Below, piece by piece: positions 482-14,475 of a stretch of DNA of 37,752 nucleotides (position 1 is the stretch's first letter; each line of letters starts with the position of its first letter). This stretch comes from Humidesulfovibrio sp. Lineage in GTDB: Bacteria; Desulfobacterota; Desulfovibrionia; Desulfovibrionales; Desulfovibrionaceae. A program made the translations under genes and the position numbers. Under the pieces are notes generated by a model. That model was not told the DNA's origin, did no database searches, and saw only the letters and a program-made list of their open reading frames with translations. The stretch is from contig NZ_JAVHLD010000030.1 of assembly GCF_031082295.1 (NCBI RefSeq), positions 1 to 37,752 on the forward strand. The letters are read 5' to 3'.

Positions 482-525
482 CCGTCACCAAGCCGTCACG
501 AACCTTTCACCAGCCAGCCACCCTT
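482..525 (+). promoter_or_regulatory. PHO-box-like array upstream of the chemoreceptor gene
   Basis: Units in exact 11-bp register are CCGTCACCAAG (482-492), CCGTCACGAAC (493-503) and CTTTCACCAGC (504-514), with a degenerate fourth unit CAGCCACCCTT (515-525). PhoB boxes are direct 11-bp repeats of the CTGTCAT plus four-base type, and the orientation here matches transcription toward the gene at 603. A very similar array lies upstream of pstS (11584-11627), which supports the reading. Control by PhoB is inferred. Confidence 0.65.
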
Positions 526-602
526 TTGCCTGCGCGCCGGGCTAAGCCGAGTCTCCAGGCGGGACACCACCCGCCGGAAACTCCCACCCGGAGCACAACG
601 CC

Positions 603-2549
603 ATGCGCAACATCCCTGTCTGGGGCAAAATCGCCCTGGGACTCGCCGCCGCCTCGGCCCTGACCCTGGCCATCACCGCCGGGGGCTACCTGGGCCTACT
701 GCGCACAGAGTCCGCCCTGGCCGAAATGGCCAGGCACCACATGCCCGCGCTGGAGGCGCTCGCCACCCTGCGCAATGCCCTAACCGCCATCCAGCGCGCG
801 GAGCGCACCCTGCTCATCGAGGAGACCTCCGAAAACCCTGCGGAAATAGCCCGCCAGAACAAGCTCATGGAGAAGTACCGGGCTCTGGCCCGGGCGGCCT
901 TCGCGGCCTACGAGGCCCTGCCGCAGACACGCGCCGAGACGAAAGCCAAGGCCGAACCGCAGCCCGTCTTCCAGGCGGGCGCCACCCCCGCAGATACCCC
1001 CGATTCCCATACTGGCGATGCACAAACCGCCGCTCCCCAGGCGGGAGCACCCGTGGCGGGCGACCCGGCCTGGCTGGAGCTGAAGGACGCCTGGGACTCC
1101 TGGCTGAAGCGCCACGACAAGGTGCTGGAGTTCTTGGCCTCGGACATGCGCATGGGCGCCATGGCCCTGTCCATGCGCGAAGCCAGGGAGTCCCTGCTGC
1201 GCGTGGAGGCCGCGCTGGACGCCATGCAGGCCCGGGAGCGCGACGAGGCGAACGCCTTTGTGGCCCAGGCCCTGCCCCAGGCCAGGCGCGACCGGCTGCT
1301 GCTGCTCGCGGCCTCGGCCCTGGCCCTGCTGACGTCCGCAGGCTTCGGCCTGCACGTGACGCGCAACATCAGCCGCCCCCTGAAGAAGACCCTGGACTTT
1401 GCCGAGCGCGTGGCCGCGGGCGACCTCTCCGCCGAGCTCACGGTCAAGCGCCGTGACGAGATCGGGAAAATGGCCGACGCCCTGCGGATCATGGTGCTGG
1501 CGCTGCAGAAGGAGATCGCCCTGGCCGAGGAGCGCGGGCAAGAGGCCGCGGCAGAGGCCGAGCACGCCCGCCAGGCCGTGGAAGAGGCCAGGCAGGCGGG
1601 CCTGCGCGCCGAGCTCTCGCGCCGCGAGGGCATGCGCCAGGCGGCCTCGCGCATGGGTCAGGTGGTGGAGCGCCTGGGCTCGGCCTCGCAGCAGCTGGCC
1701 GCCCAGGTGGAACAGAGCGCGCGCGGAGCCGAGGAGCAGTCGCGCCTGTCCATCCGCACGGCCACGGACATGGAGCGGCTCATCGCCTCCGTTTCCGGCA
1801 CCGACGCCGGGGCCGCCAGCGCCGCCACCACCGCCGACGCGGCCCGCGACAAGGCCCTCACCGGCGCCGAGGCCGTGGAGCTGGTGACCCGCGACGTGGC
1901 CGCGGTGCAGGAGCGCGCCGCCGTCCTGCGCGGGAGCATGGACGCCCTGCGCGCCAGGAGCGAGGACATCGGCCGCATCATCTCCGTCATTGACGACATC
2001 GCCGACCAGACCAACCTGCTGGCCCTGAACGCCGCCATCGAGGCCGCGCGGGCGGGCGACGCCGGGCGCGGGTTCGCCGTGGTGGCCGACGAGGTCCGCA
2101 AGCTGGCCGAGAAGACCCAGGCCGCCACCAAGCAGGTGGACGAGGCCATCCGGGGCATCCAGCAGGAGACCGGCGGCAGCCTCACGCAGGTGGAGCTGGC
2201 GGGCAAGGCCGTGGACGAGGCCACCGAACAGGCCGGAGCCTCGGCCAGCGCTCTGGCGGAGATCGTGGACCTGGCCTCCCGCGCCGCCGGGGAGGTGCGC
2301 GGCATCGCCCAGTCCGCGCGCGAGCAGGCCCAGTCCGGGCGCGAGGTGAGCCAGTCCGTGGAGGACATGCGGCGCATCAGCGAGGAGACGAGCCGGGTCA
2401 TGGAGGAAAGCGCCCGGGCCGTGAGCGAGCTGGCCCAGCAGGCGCACAACCTCGCGGGCATTGTCGACGACATCCGCGCCGACGCGGGCGAGGACGCGGG
2501 TGACAACGAGCTCCCGCACAGGATGGAGCTGCTGCGGCCCGCCGCCTAG
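603..2549 (+). CDS. Methyl-accepting chemotaxis protein (transmembrane chemoreceptor)
   Basis: This is an inner-membrane chemoreceptor that would control CheA through CheW. It has a transmembrane helix at about residues 9-33, a predicted periplasmic sensor region at about 34-230 and a second helix at about 231-250. A HAMP linker follows at about 252-304, then a long cytoplasmic signalling coiled coil. The conserved hairpin tip is at about 463-505 ([18 protein letters not shown]). The sensor region looks mostly helical, as in four-helix-bundle sensors, but is interrupted by an Ala/Pro/Gln-rich stretch at about 109-155. There is no C-terminal CheR-docking pentapeptide. The ATG has a modest upstream CCGGAG. 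The gene stands alone between two near-identical hairpins and has a PHO-box-like array about 80 bp upstream, so its ligand or expression may relate to phosphate; the ligand itself is unknown. Confidence 0.93.
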
Positions 2550-2631: not shown

Positions 2632-4377
2632 CTACTCGGCTTCGCCGTTGTTCACGCGCAGCGAGTTGATGAGCGAGAGCAGCAGGCTCGGCTTGTCGTG
2701 CAGGTCGCTCGACTGCAGGAACATCATGCGCTGGCGGAAGCGGCTCTGCACGGTGGCGATATACGCCGCGCGGTTCTCCACGTTGTCCGGGTGGTAGGCG
2801 TCGTAGTAGTCGGGCAGGATGGCCTCCACGCTGGCGCGGGTGGGAATCTGCGCGCCGGGCAGCAGGTCCAGCTTCTCCCACTGGAGCTTGTCGAGCAGAA
2901 GCGCGGTCTGCAGCGTCAGCGAGGTCTTGAGCGGGATGGCCCGCAGGTCCAGGTCCGACGACTTCCAGAACCCGCTGGAGTTGAAGCAGTAGCCCACGGC
3001 CCCCTGGTGGAAGACCTTGGTGAAGGCCTGCACGTCGCGCCACAGCTCGTACACCCGGAAGGGGTTGGCGTAGGGCATGAACACCAGCTTCTGCAACTCC
3101 TCCTCGGGCACGTTCTCGGCCCGGTTGCGCCGGGTCATGAGGCTCGCGCCCATGGCCACGGCCAGGGACGGATCGTCGAAGCGCATGAGCGGCGGCAGGC
3201 AGGAGTCCTTCATGAGCCAGCAGATGATGTCCGGGAAGCCGCAGCGGTTCACGTACGCGCCGAGCAGGTCGCGGTCGAACAGGGCGCGGCCGTTGGAGTT
3301 GCGCAGGTCCTGGCCCAGCGGCAGAACCTTGCCGTCCACCTCGATGAGCCCGTGGTTCATGACCGAAATGATGTAGCGCCAGTCGTCTGAGCCGAGCGGG
3401 CGCGAGTCGGTCTTGTCGAAGAGCGTGGGCTCCCACACGCGGCAGACCTTCTCCTCGCAGTCGATCTGGAAGGCGTCGTCGTGCAGCACCACCTTCTTGA
3501 AGCCCTCGGGCAGGGTGCCGCCGTTGTCGGCGCTGTTGGTGTGCGAGCTCTTGCCCGTGCCGGAAAGTCCGAAGAAGGCGATGGAGCGCTTGCCCACGGC
3601 CTTGGCCGCCTTGTCCTTGCAGCCGGAGAAGTCGATCTCCTTGATGCCGCCGTGGCAGGCGGCCATGCCCAGGCGCATGCCCGAGGTCCAGGCCAGGGTG
3701 AGCGTGCCCTTCTTGCGCTCGCCGAAGTAGCGCATGCCCAGGTTGAAGATGACGTTGGCGGTCTCGTCCACCAGGGCCAGCTGCGGCCCGCCGTGGTTGT
3801 TGTAGAACGGGTCGGGGTTGTTCCACAGGTTGTCGCCGATGATGAGGATGTCCTGGATGGGCAGCTTGGGGCTCTTCTCGTATTCCTTGGCCAGCTCGTC
3901 GTACGGGGTGAAGTTGGCCAGCCAGTTGAACACGTTGACGGCGTCGTCCTCTCCGGCCACCAGGGTGGCGCGGATCATGAGGTCCTTGTCCAGGCCGAGG
4001 ATGGCGTGGGCCTTGATGAGCGGACGCTTCTGGAAGTCGAACATGGCCTCGCGGATGTCGCCCAGGACCTTCTGCTGCTCGGTGGGGGTGAGGGCGTTGT
4101 AGAAGCGCCTGGCGTTGGCGCTACGGCCCACGATGCGGCCATGGCAGTTGTTCAGCACCTTGGCGCCCTTGGGCAGGCCCAGGCGCTTGGCGGCCGGGGG
4201 GTACACGGGCATGTCGGTGACGGCCACGTCGTGCTGGGCCTTGGCGAGCTCGTAGGCCTCGGCCGCGCTGACCAGGCGCACGCGGGGATCGAGGATGAGC
4301 GTTTCGGCAAGGGCGCGCAGGGGGGGCATTTTAGACAGGTCGGGACCGTAGAACTCGTAGCTCGACTGGCTGGACAT
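2632..4377 (-). CDS. pckA: Phosphoenolpyruvate carboxykinase (ATP type)
   Basis: It catalyses the reversible ATP-dependent conversion of oxaloacetate to PEP and CO2, linking C4 acids to gluconeogenesis in the cytoplasm. The diagnostic kinase-type P-loop FFGLSGTGKSS lies at about residues 268-278, where the family usually has GTGKTT. An acidic metal-binding segment follows (VVLHDDAF). At 581 residues it is longer than the typical 520-540 of the ATP family and is a divergent member. The ATG at 4377 was chosen because GGAGG sits 8 nt upstream; an in-frame ATG at 4473 would add 32 poorly coding residues. It is transcribed alone on the minus strand, convergent with the chemoreceptor gene. The upstream gap (4378-4576) has no clear promoter. 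Confidence 0.88.
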   Translation of the reverse strand: MSSQSSYEFYGPDLSKMPPLRALAETLILDPRVRLVSAAEAYELAKAQHDVAVTDMPVYPPAAKRLGLPKGAKVLNNCHGRIVGRSANARRFYNALTPTEQQKVLGDIREAMFDFQKRPLIKAHAILGLDKDLMIRATLVAGEDDAVNVFNWLANFTPYDELAKEYEKSPKLPIQDILIIGDNLWNNPDPFYNNHGGPQLALVDETANVIFNLGMRYFGERKKGTLTLAWTSGMRLGMAACHGGIKEIDFSGCKDKAAKAVGKRSIAFFGLSGTGKSSHTNSADNGGTLPEGFKKVVLHDDAFQIDCEEKVCRVWEPTLFDKTDSRPLGSDDWRYIISVMNHGLIEVDGKVLPLGQDLRNSNGRALFDRDLLGAYVNRCGFPDIICWLMKDSCLPPLMRFDDPSLAVAMGASLMTRRNRAENVPEEELQKLVFMPYANPFRVYELWRDVQAFTKVFHQGAVGYCFNSSGFWKSSDLDLRAIPLKTSLTLQTALLLDKLQWEKLDLLPGAQIPTRASVEAILPDYYDAYHPDNVENRAAYIATVQSRFRQRMMFLQSSDLHDKPSLLLSLINSLRVNNGEAE

Positions 4378-11583: not shown

Positions 11584-11627
11584 GCGTCACCCACCTTTCT
11601 CCCGGCCGTCACACAACCGTCACACGG
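11584..11627 (+). promoter_or_regulatory. PHO-box-like array upstream of pstS
   Basis: Four units keep an exact 11-bp register: GCGTCACCCAC (11584), CTTTCTCCCGG (11595), CCGTCACACAA (11606) and CCGTCACACGG (11617). The last two are the best matches to the PhoB direct repeat. A plausible -10 (TAGATC, 11634-11639) follows with no separate -35, as expected for PhoB-activated promoters. Position before pstS strongly supports the assignment. Confidence 0.8.
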
Positions 11628-11684
11628 CGTGGGTAGATCATGCCTCGTACAAACGTGAACATCAACCCTTTCGGAGGTTCATCC

Positions 11685-12530
11685 ATGAAACGTCTTCTTT
11701 CCGCAGCCCTCAGCGCCCTGGCCGTGCTCGGCCTGGCCGCCGTCTCCTTCGCCGGCGATCTCCCGGTCAAGGGCTCCACCACGGTCCAGCCCATCATGCA
11801 GAAGGCCGTCGAGGCCTTCATGGCCAAGAACAAGGACGTCAGCGTGTCCATCTCCGCCTCCGGCTCCGGCGACGGCGCCAAGGCCCTCATCGACGGCAGC
11901 TCCCCGCTGGCCATGATGAGCCGCGAGATGAAGGAATCCGAAATCAAGCAGGCCGAGGCCAAGGGCGTGCGCCCCAAGCAGATCGTGGTCGCCTATGACT
12001 GCATCATCCCGGTGGTCAACGCCGCCAACCCGGTCAAGAACATCACCATGGCCCAGCTGAAGGACATCTACACCGGCAAGGTCAAGGACTGGAAAGATTT
12101 GGGCGGCGCCCCCGGCCAGATCGTCGTCGTCTCCCGCGACTCCTCCTCCGGCACCTTCGAGTACTGGGGCGACCACGTTATGAAGAAGGAGCGCGTTTTC
12201 GCCCGCGCCCTGATGCAGGCCAGTAACGGCGCCGTGGCCCAGACCGTGGCCAAGAACAAGTACGCCATCGGCTACGTGGGCCTGGCCTACGCCAAGGCTC
12301 CCGGCCTGAAGGACCTCACCGTCGAGGGCGTCATGGGCAGCGTGGAGAACACCCTGAACGGCACCTACCCCATCTCGCGCGGGCTGTACCTCTACTCCAA
12401 CGGCGAGCCCGCCGGAGACGTGGCCAGGCTCGTGAACTTCATCCTGTCCGACGCCGGCCAGAAGATCGTGGCCCAGGTGGAGTACGTGCCCCTGAAGTCC
12501 AGCAAGACGGCCAAGAAGGGCAAGAAGTAG
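11685..12530 (+). CDS. pstS: Phosphate-binding periplasmic protein PstS
   Basis: This is the periplasmic solute-binding subunit of the high-affinity Pst phosphate ABC transporter. Residues 1-23 form a classical signal peptide (basic KR, then an Ala/Leu-rich core) with a likely cleavage after SFA. The mature protein starts with the family motif VKGSTTVQPI. Further signatures are SGSGDGAKALIDG, the SRDSSSGTFEYW phosphate-binding loop and IGYVGLAYA. At 281 residues it is a short-type PstS. The ATG at 11685 has CGGAGG 8-9 nt upstream. It is first in the pst operon, behind a PHO-box-like array, and is followed by a strong intercistronic hairpin. Confidence 0.96.
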   Translation: MKRLLSAALSALAVLGLAAVSFAGDLPVKGSTTVQPIMQKAVEAFMAKNKDVSVSISASGSGDGAKALIDGSSPLAMMSREMKESEIKQAEAKGVRPKQIVVAYDCIIPVVNAANPVKNITMAQLKDIYTGKVKDWKDLGGAPGQIVVVSRDSSSGTFEYWGDHVMKKERVFARALMQASNGAVAQTVAKNKYAIGYVGLAYAKAPGLKDLTVEGVMGSVENTLNGTYPISRGLYLYSNGEPAGDVARLVNFILSDAGQKIVAQVEYVPLKSSKTAKKGKK

Positions 12531-12647: not shown

Positions 12648-13538
12648 ATGCGCCGCAGCACCAGGGAAATCCTCATCAAACGGGCCTTCATGGCCACGGC
12701 CGTGACCTCGCTGGCAGTGCTGGCGCTCATCATGGTCTTCCTGTTCATGGAGGGCCTGCCCGCCTTCGGCTTCGTCAGCGTGAAGGACTTTCTGACGGGC
12801 ATGGACTGGTACCCCACGGACGAGGCCAACCCCGCCTACGGCATCCTGCCGCTCATCGCCGCCAGCGCCTCGGTGACGGCCCTGTCGTCGCTGGTGGCCA
12901 TCCCCCTTGGCGTCATGACCGCCGTGTACCTGGCCGAGATCGCCAGCCCCCGCGTGCGCGCCGTGGTCAAGCCCGTCGTGGAGATGCTGGCGAGCCTGCC
13001 CTCGGTGGTCATCGGCTTCTTCGGCATGGTGGTCATGGCCCCGTTCCTCCAGGACTATTTCGACATCCCCGTGGGCCTGAACCTGGCCAACGCCGCGCTC
13101 ATGCTGGCCTTCATGAGCGTGCCCACCATCGCCAGCGTCAGCGAGGACGCCATCTACGCCGTCCCGCGCGACCTCAAGGAAGCCAGCTTCGCCCTGGGCG
13201 CCACGCACCTGGAAACGCTTCTGCGCGTCACCATCCCGGCCTCGCTCTCCGGCATCGGCACGGCGGTGATCCTGGGCATGAGCCGGGCCATCGGCGAGAC
13301 CATGGTGGTGCTCATGGTGGCGGGCGGCGCGGCGGTGATCCCGGACTCGCTGTGGAGCCCGGTGCGGCCCATGCCCGCGAGCATCGCGGCGGAAATGGCC
13401 GAGGCGCCGTTTCGCGGCCACCACTACCACGCGCTCTTCGCCACGGCCATGGTGCTCTTCCTGGTGACGCTCAGCTTCAACATCCTGGCGGACTACATCT
13501 CCCACAAGCACCAGCAGACCGGCTCGGCCAGCCTGTAA
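12648..13538 (+). CDS. pstC: Phosphate ABC transporter permease PstC
   Basis: This is an inner-membrane permease subunit of the Pst system. The 296-residue protein starts with a short basic segment, then a first helix at about 14-33. It shows the usual set of six membrane segments. The binding-protein-dependent permease (EAA) loop is visible as REDLKEASFALGATHLET-like sequence in the C-terminal half, followed by GMSRAIGETMVVLMVAGGA, a PstC hallmark. The ATG at 12648 was chosen for GGAG 8 nt upstream; an earlier in-frame ATG at 12570 falls inside the intercistronic hairpin. It is followed 13 nt later by pstA. Confidence 0.95.
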   Translation: MRRSTREILIKRAFMATAVTSLAVLALIMVFLFMEGLPAFGFVSVKDFLTGMDWYPTDEANPAYGILPLIAASASVTALSSLVAIPLGVMTAVYLAEIASPRVRAVVKPVVEMLASLPSVVIGFFGMVVMAPFLQDYFDIPVGLNLANAALMLAFMSVPTIASVSEDAIYAVPRDLKEASFALGATHLETLLRVTIPASLSGIGTAVILGMSRAIGETMVVLMVAGGAAVIPDSLWSPVRPMPASIAAEMAEAPFRGHHYHALFATAMVLFLVTLSFNILADYISHKHQQTGSASL

Positions 13539-13551
13539 AGCGAGGCGAAAC

Positions 13552-14475
13552 ATGAACGTTGACGCGACCCTCTCCCTGCCCACGCCCCCGCGCCGTTCCC
13601 TGTCCGTCACCACGGGCCGCGACCGCGTGCGCAAGACCAAGCAGTGGCTGGCCTTCATGCTGCTGCGCGGGGCCATCCTCACCGTGGCCGCGGCGCTGGC
13701 CGTCATCATCGGCTTTTTGCTGGTCAACGGGCTGTCGTCCATCTCCTGGAGCTTTCTGACTGAAGTCCCGCGCAACAACATGACCGAGGGCGGCATCTGG
13801 CCGTGCATCGTGGGCACGGTGCTGCTGTCGCTGGGGGCCATGGCCGTGGCCCTGCCGCTGGGCGTGGCCAGCGCCATCTACCTGCACGAGTACGCCCAGC
13901 CGGGCAGGCTCATGCGCATCATCCGCCTGGGGGTGAACAACCTGGCGGGCGTGCCCTCGGTGGTGTTCGGCCTGTTCGGCCTGGGGCTGTTCGTCACGGT
14001 GCTCGACCTTGGCGTGTCGCTCCTGGCGGGCTGGCTGACGCTCGGCGTGCTGTGCCTGCCGGTGATCATCGGCACCACGGAGGAGGCGCTGAAGAGCGTT
14101 CCGGCCACCTATCGCGAGGCCTCCCTGGCCCTTGGCGGCACCAAGTGGCAGACCATCTGGCGCGTGGTGCTGCCAAGCGCGCTGCCGGGCATCCTCACCG
14201 GCTCTATCCTCGGCATCAGCCGCGCCGCGGGCGAAACCGCGGCCATCATGTTCACGGCGGCGGTGTTCTACACGCCCAAGATGCCCAGCTCGATGTTCTC
14301 CGACGTCATGGCCCTGCCCTACCACATCTACGTGCTGGCCACGGCGGGCACGGAGATCGAGAAGACCCGGCCCATCCAGTACGGCACGGCGCTGGTGCTC
14401 ATAGGCCTCGTGCTGGGCATGAACCTCTTCGCCATCTTCCTGCGCGCCTGGCTGCAACGCCGGGGCAAGCGCTAG
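13552..14475 (+). CDS. pstA: Phosphate ABC transporter permease PstA
   Basis: This is the second permease subunit of the Pst system, 307 residues, with about six membrane helices. Characteristic motifs are ATYREASLALGGTKWQTIW (the EAA loop), GISRAAGETAAIMFTA and LPYHIYVLAT near the C-terminus. A basic N-terminal tail (about 1-30) precedes the first helix. It lies 13 nt after pstC with a GAGGCG ribosome binding site. The operon ends here at a strong bidirectional terminator. The ATPase gene pstB and the regulator phoU, which usually follow, are absent from the window. Confidence 0.95.
   Translation: MNVDATLSLPTPPRRSLSVTTGRDRVRKTKQWLAFMLLRGAILTVAAALAVIIGFLLVNGLSSISWSFLTEVPRNNMTEGGIWPCIVGTVLLSLGAMAVALPLGVASAIYLHEYAQPGRLMRIIRLGVNNLAGVPSVVFGLFGLGLFVTVLDLGVSLLAGWLTLGVLCLPVIIGTTEEALKSVPATYREASLALGGTKWQTIWRVVLPSALPGILTGSILGISRAAGETAAIMFTAAVFYTPKMPSSMFSDVMALPYHIYVLATAGTEIEKTRPIQYGTALVLIGLVLGMNLFAIFLRAWLQRRGKR

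Follow-up and report, generated by a model that had tools for sequence, protein, structure and literature searches.

The chemoreceptor gene at positions 603–2549 (plus strand) of the window, by which we mean the whole 37,752-nucleotide stretch of Humidesulfovibrio sp. DNA analyzed here, is preceded by an array of direct repeats that resembles a Pho box and that has been retained upstream of every ortholog of the gene found in its genus. The same box stands in front of pstS and other genes of the phosphate response. We consider it very likely that the array is a PhoB site and that this methyl-accepting chemotaxis protein (MCP) is under PhoB control. We assign a probability of roughly 60% to the broader reading that this Pho-regulon MCP, probably transcribed alone, most likely steers cells toward a phosphorus source. 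The array, its conservation, the motif common to Pho genes, the promoter phase, and the predicted fold are read from the sequence, and from these we infer PhoB binding, activation, and phosphate as the driver.

A conserved direct-repeat array upstream of the chemoreceptor gene

The array occupies positions 482–525 on the plus strand and is oriented toward the MCP gene. It consists of four direct repeats of about 7 bp in exact 11-bp register, as is typical of Pho-regulon promoters, with units at 482–492 (CCGTCACCAAG), 493–503 (CCGTCACGAAC), 504–514 (CTTTCACCAGC), and 515–525 (CAGCCACCCTT), the last of which is weak. The first-pass annotation of this DNA had described such a register upstream of a lone MCP gene, and the unit starts at 482, 493, 504, and 515 bear this out. 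When the window was searched for three units of KTCACn6, 6 bases apart, with at most one mismatch, only two arrays were recovered, the one described here and a second in front of pstS (11584–11627). No three-unit array appeared in 200 dinucleotide shuffles of the window, whether the 0- or the 1-mismatch form was scored. Across the 3.45-Mb genome, in which the window is contig C23, the pattern gives eight matches at one mismatch or fewer and its reversed control gives none. These matches fall at five sites, namely the MCP gene, the pstS gene of the window, an alkaline phosphatase gene, an EAL/GGDEF gene, and a site on contig C71 without an evident target, and the MCP array is one of the two zero-mismatch sites in the genome. 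Downstream of the array lies a putative −10 element, TAAGCC (543–548, plus strand), whose TA falls exactly 28 nt after unit 4 begins; the element is TATG-like in several orthologs. No promoter of the TTGACA/TATAAT type was found within positions 330–2700.

To determine how widely the gene occurs, we searched 59 genomes, 15 of the genus and 44 from outside it. A close ortholog of the sensor region is present in 10 of the 14 other genus genomes, with best pieces that are 61 to 88% identical. The remaining four (G001, which is 99% complete, G008, G011, and G014) gave no close ortholog, so the MCP is not essential to the phosphate response. Among the matches listed for the 44 non-genus genomes, all begin at residue 135 or later and show 30 to 49% identity, and among those listed for all 59 genomes close orthologs occur only in the genus of the window. 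The named relatives of the protein come from eight metagenome-assembled genomes that carry the labels Deltaproteobacteria, Proteobacteria, Desulfovibrionaceae, Desulfovibrionales, Desulfovibrio, Humidesulfovibrio, and Desulfocurvus, which probably places the genus at or near Humidesulfovibrio.

The array is found in register upstream of all 11 MCP genes of the genus, 114 to 136 nt before the start codon. Invariant across the 11 orthologs are the G and T of GTCAC in unit 1; the G, T, A, and last C of GTCAC in unit 2; the second T, the A, and the last C of TTCAC in unit 3; and the A, C, and next C of unit 4 (columns 38–40). The TA of the −10 element is likewise invariant (11/11), and its 28-nt distance from the start of unit 4 never changes. 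Core columns carry 1.34 bits of information on average and spacers 0.67, compared with 0.50 bits in the 41 nt that follow the array and 0.23 in the diverged 60 nt that precede it. With one mismatch or fewer over three units, 8 of the 11 MCP arrays are detected, those of G004, G009, and G010 being weaker. A position weight matrix for the unit, trained on 26 windows of non-MCP boxes, places its best four-unit position at the array in each of the 11 upstream regions. The scores range from 11.8 to 31.2 bits, with 12.4 for G004, 11.8 for G009, and 16.8 for G010, against a 99.99% background quantile of 0.9 over 176 kb of the window's genome. In those 176 kb the MCP array ranks third, behind two pstS arrays; the training set included several competing sites of this genome, which favors those sites and not the MCP. 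The conservation check that the first-pass annotation had proposed for orthologous MCP genes therefore came out positive in 11 of 11 cases, three of them weak, and its Pho-box interpretation is strongly supported by the orthologs, by the other Pho genes, and by the whole-genome scan.

The array stays with the MCP gene while the gene neighbors change from genome to genome. A PEPCK-like gene, which scores under the Pfam cut-off, lies downstream in G000, G002, and G012, and other genes take its place in G004, G006, and G009. In G007 the MCP gene is convergent with a phoB-like gene that carries its own box (L131), and in G013 it is divergent from a boxed OlsF-like gene (L129), with a boxed GAK-type gene cluster and a pstS also present on the same contig.

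The same box at other Pho genes and its probable regulator

The pstS array of the window (11584–11627, plus strand) reads GCGTCACCCAC CTTTCTCCCGG CCGTCACACAA CCGTCACACGG and is followed by a putative −10 element, TAGATC (11634–11639, plus strand), which lies 17 nt beyond the first base of the last unit, and by pstS itself (11685–12530, plus strand; PF12849). A pstC-like gene (12648–13538), named by its position and by eye, and a pstA-like gene (13552–14475; PF00528) come next. The four-unit layout is common to 16 pstS upstream regions, GCGTCAC.... CTTTCTC.... CCGTCACACAA CCGTCAC with small variations, and in 14 of these TA sits at the same 17-nt distance, the other two having TT there. A second pstS copy in the window's genome, on contig C3, has a weaker array that is missed at one mismatch or fewer. 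The earlier observation that the same register precedes pstS thus holds, with the refinement that the spacing to the −10 TA is 28 nt at the MCP gene and 17 nt at pstS.

Summed over the 15 genus genomes, the three-unit pattern gives 70 matches, compared with 6 for its reversed control. The other boxed genes in the genus encode an alkaline phosphatase (PF00245), an EAL/GGDEF/CBS protein, a PhoB-like regulator whose best NCBIfam model is PhoB (230 bits, below the cut-off of 296), an OlsF-like ornithine-lipid synthase (403 bits, below the cut-off of 620), and a GAK-system XXXCH protein. Among the 27 distinct non-MCP sites of the genus, with distances counted from where the last unit begins, TA lies at 17 nt in 9 and at 28 nt in 13, for 21 sites in all, one of which has both; 4 of the 27 have CA at 17 nt, and 2 have neither TA nor CA. 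Because 28 is 17 plus 11, the two spacing classes share the same helical phase. The MCP promoter belongs to the 28-nt class together with the OlsF-like, alkaline phosphatase, and phoB-like promoters, and it lacks the unit nearest the −10 element that the pstS promoter has. Its −10 element is in fixed helical phase with the repeats and a −35 consensus is absent, as is characteristic of the Pho regulon.

A regulator suited to such sites has been described in Desulfovibrio vulgaris, where PhoB (DVU1083) recognizes the direct-repeat box GTTAC-n6-GTTAC, as confirmed by gel shift. It shifts AGGTTACAGCATAGTTAC, which lies upstream of por, and when phosphate is low it activates pstS (PMC6456213). The array in the window matches this validated PhoB site. 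The D. vulgaris PhoB targets include HD/EAL genes (PMC3333781, PMC6456213); the available text of these papers names no chemoreceptor among them, and the abbreviation MCP occurs in the legend of Figure 6 in PMC3333781. The close orthologs of the Humidesulfovibrio MCP gene, among the matches listed for the 59 genomes, are confined to its own genus, a point of difference from the D. vulgaris regulon. Four OmpR-type DNA-binding domains are encoded in the window's genome, and two of them belong to PhoB-like regulators, one on contig C3 beside pstB and phoU and the other on contig C50, both 67–68% identical to the PhoB-like regulator of G007 over the aligned part.

Three readings compete with activation by PhoB. 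We reject a chance resemblance with no regulatory role, since the shuffled windows contain no such array and the repeats persist in all 11 orthologs against diverged flanks, even though short-unit direct repeats can arise by chance in GC-rich DNA and the reversed pattern still produces its 6 matches in 15 genomes. That another OmpR-family regulator with a similar direct-repeat site reads the array is improbable. Members of this family can generally bind direct repeats and the genome has four candidate domains, but two of the four proteins are themselves PhoB-like, the genus carries this array, in this phase, in front of its pstS, alkaline phosphatase, and phoB-like genes, and the spacing equals that of the D. 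vulgaris PhoB site. We regard it as very unlikely that bound PhoB represses the MCP gene instead of activating it: the same long spacing is found at the alkaline phosphatase, OlsF-like, and phoB-like promoters, which as Pho-regulon promoters are expected to be active at low phosphate, and this outweighs the overlap of unit 4 with the place of a −35 element and the additional 11 bp that separate the repeats from the −10 element relative to pstS. Under the favored model of activation by PhoB, scarcity of phosphate would lead phosphorylated PhoB to occupy the four direct repeats as tandem dimers and to bring RNA polymerase to a promoter with a −10 element but no −35 consensus, and the receptor would thereby be made when it is needed.

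The receptor and its candidate ligands

The gene encodes a protein of 648 aa in which the models place a transmembrane helix, a four-helix sensor, a second transmembrane helix, a HAMP domain, and an MCP signaling domain (PF00015, PF00672, PF02203, PF12729). The periplasmic sensor domain spans residues 31–233 (693–1301, plus strand) and matches the Pfam families TarH and 4HB_MCP_1 barely above their cut-offs. In Foldseek searches with a model of the sensor only, Vc1313, Tsr, and Tar rank higher than NarQ, which a longer model also matched, and the matches include receptors whose structures were determined with serine, aspartate, quinate, malate, citrate, and D-amino acids. By its predicted structure the sensor is a four-helix bundle of the Tar/Tsr type, the fold that a CtpH-type receptor calls for, and fold alone shows no ligand. 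Twenty-one polar, charged, or aromatic residues of the sensor are invariant in 10 orthologs, including R57, R65, R68, R170, H171, R183, and R192. The unusual Ala/Pro-rich insert remarked on in the first-pass annotation is present as a loop between helices 2 and 3 (residues 108–156; 924–1070, plus strand), but it is not a conserved feature, because the stretch from P107 to W157 varies from 7 to 49 residues in the 10 orthologs. The pLDDT is under 50 over most of this stretch, and its hypervariable length rules the insert out as a conserved ligand site.

GC-rich hairpins flank the gene at 403–442 and at 2573–2606, the latter called on the minus strand and the former seen by eye at a place where a terminator scan limited to loops of 8 makes no call; they suggest that the MCP gene is its own transcription unit. 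The next gene (2632–4377) is convergent with it. An operon with the small upstream ORF at 87–338 is unlikely, as the GC-rich hairpin with a T-rich tail at about 403–442 stands between the two and no such ORF is called beside several of the orthologs.

Most of what is known about phosphate taxis comes from Pseudomonas, and two receptors of P. aeruginosa offer the closest parallels. CtpL (PA4844) is downregulated by phosphate and rises when phosphate is low (PMC9864684), it mediates taxis to low phosphate, and its ligand-binding domain (construct residues 27–324) binds PstS-phosphate and not phosphate (PMC4926252). The MCP described here resembles CtpL as a chemoreceptor with low-phosphate expression, predicted in its case from the promoter sequence, and differs in its smaller sensor, a four-helix bundle of about 155 residues plus the loop, for which PstS binding is putative. 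CtpH (PA2561) has a four-helix-bundle sensor that binds phosphate directly with a Kd of 22 μM, and its expression is downregulated by phosphate (PMC4926252, PMC9864684). The likeness to CtpH lies in the four-helix-bundle sensor and is drawn by description rather than by sequence comparison; the MCP of the window comes from a distant bacterial lineage, and phosphate is a candidate ligand. Like CtpH, the receptor could bind phosphate or another phosphorus compound directly, or like CtpL it could bind the abundant PstS-phosphate complex. If the gene is indeed under Pho control, we think it reasonably likely that the ligand is a phosphorus compound or PstS.

Pho control does not by itself prove the ligand, because other receptors also rise at low phosphate in P. 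aeruginosa, where McpB/Aer2 and PA2573 do so besides CtpL (PMC9864684). The MCP could accordingly be Pho-controlled as part of a general foraging response to starvation and respond to a carbon source, an electron acceptor, or redox, and the structure matches agree with this in that four-helix-bundle sensors bind very varied ligands. We consider such a non-phosphorus cue possible but unlikely, since the wiring is kept in all 11 orthologs found and is targeted to one receptor. The genome has 20 places with an MCP signaling domain, and none of the other 19 genes lies behind a match in the whole-genome scan at one mismatch or fewer or has an array at two mismatches or fewer in the loci examined.

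Pho-controlled chemoreceptors as in Pseudomonas are a known kind, of which the MCP of the window is a further member. Our searches of the literature on PhoB or Pho and chemoreceptors or chemotaxis, on phosphate taxis, and on Humidesulfovibrio and phosphate, which covered the field in part and went by titles and the starts of abstracts, returned no sulfate reducer with a chemoreceptor under Pho control. In Desulfovibrio alaskensis G20, the MCP Dde_3561 is among 91 genes important under phosphate limitation or starvation, with scores of −1.26 and −0.90 at 0 and 10 μM compared with −0.39 at 500 μM after 5 d, and of −1.37 and −1.60 compared with −0.26 after 10 d (PMC5193443). The available part of that source presents it by fitness score, without a promoter or ligand, and its likeness to the MCP studied here is one of description. 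In Agrobacterium tumefaciens GW4, the receptor Mcp senses arsenite and is controlled by AioR, the response regulator of its ligand's pathway (PMC7533571); there too a receptor gene is under a pathway regulator, which is AioR and not PhoB. If the reading proposed here is correct, the retention of a Pho-controlled receptor across a genus of sulfate reducers would point to phosphorus-directed swimming as part of the starvation response in anoxic habitats, and the window supplies a single gene with one mapped site, along with pstS as a ready-made positive control.

Boxes and chemoreceptors beyond the genus

In 75 genomes outside the genus, the three-unit pattern gives 118 matches compared with 45 for the reversed control (both summed), so many of the out-of-genus sites may be due to chance. 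We sampled 110 site rows, representing 109 of 113 distinct sites, and asked whether anything within 1.7 kb matched the Pho-type proteins of the genus set. Such a match is found in the direction of the box in 30 rows and in the opposite direction in 1. When rows that depend on PstB alone are omitted, as these may be other ATPases, 27 of 110 still have one in the box direction. MCP genes are no commoner behind the boxes, with one in the box direction and one on the opposite strand. Judged from sequence, the motif marks Pho genes across the family, with noise. A strict pattern of three units plus TA proved too stringent when applied to 119 family genomes, matching 3 of them, including 1 of the 6 genus genomes.

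The single MCP in the box direction is that of G033, a member of another genus (L280:2378–6805, contig C5). It is a 592-aa protein (PF00015) whose gene starts about 140 nt behind a box with one mismatch and is followed by phnG, phnH, and phnI, recognized by Pfam, and by phnJ, recognized by eye, which are C–P lyase genes. A comparison of its sensor with that of the MCP in the window found no match, its box lacks TA at both the 17- and the 28-nt distance, and two distant homologs of the protein (34% identity in G066 and 27% in G068) have no array at one mismatch or fewer in their loci, the best having 3 to 5. G033 is one genome of 128 searched, and by our rough estimate one MCP among 110 rows is about the chance level, so it is the C–P lyase neighborhood and not the count that carries the lead. 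The G033 protein is possibly a phosphonate chemoreceptor, a lead with a weak promoter case. A wider scenario, which we advance tentatively and regard as doubtful, is that anaerobic sulfate reducers of this family have brought chemoreceptors under Pho control on more than one occasion, with the four-helix-bundle receptor of the genus serving starvation-induced phosphate taxis independently of Pseudomonas and the G033-type receptor, wired to C–P lyase, serving phosphonate taxis.

Several other boxed loci emerged from these scans. EAL/GGDEF-type genes have a Pho-type box in several genera (L135:2354, L136:2069, L144:1955; L195–L197, L229, L247, L257), and these boxes link phosphate and cyclic-di-GMP in this family. 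Genes of the GAK-system type, encoding an XXXCH protein, lie behind Pho-type boxes with a weak PhoU match nearby (L129:14007–16112, L137:4608–6719), and the GAK system may be a member of the phosphate response. A conserved zero-mismatch box at L133:2631 (minus strand), found also at L140, L146, and L138, has no evident enzyme behind it; it is followed by a leader of low conservation and, at three of these four loci, by a similar short coding-like stretch (a 64-aa ORF in L133), and it possibly drives a Pho-controlled small gene or RNA. Finally, two genus genomes share, at 99.8% identity, a 15.7-kb stretch with phnD-like, pstS-C-A-type, phoU, pstB, phoB-like, and alkaline phosphatase genes (L134, G000 C3:13000–28724; L165, G001 C51), which reflects either recent transfer or cross-binning of contigs.
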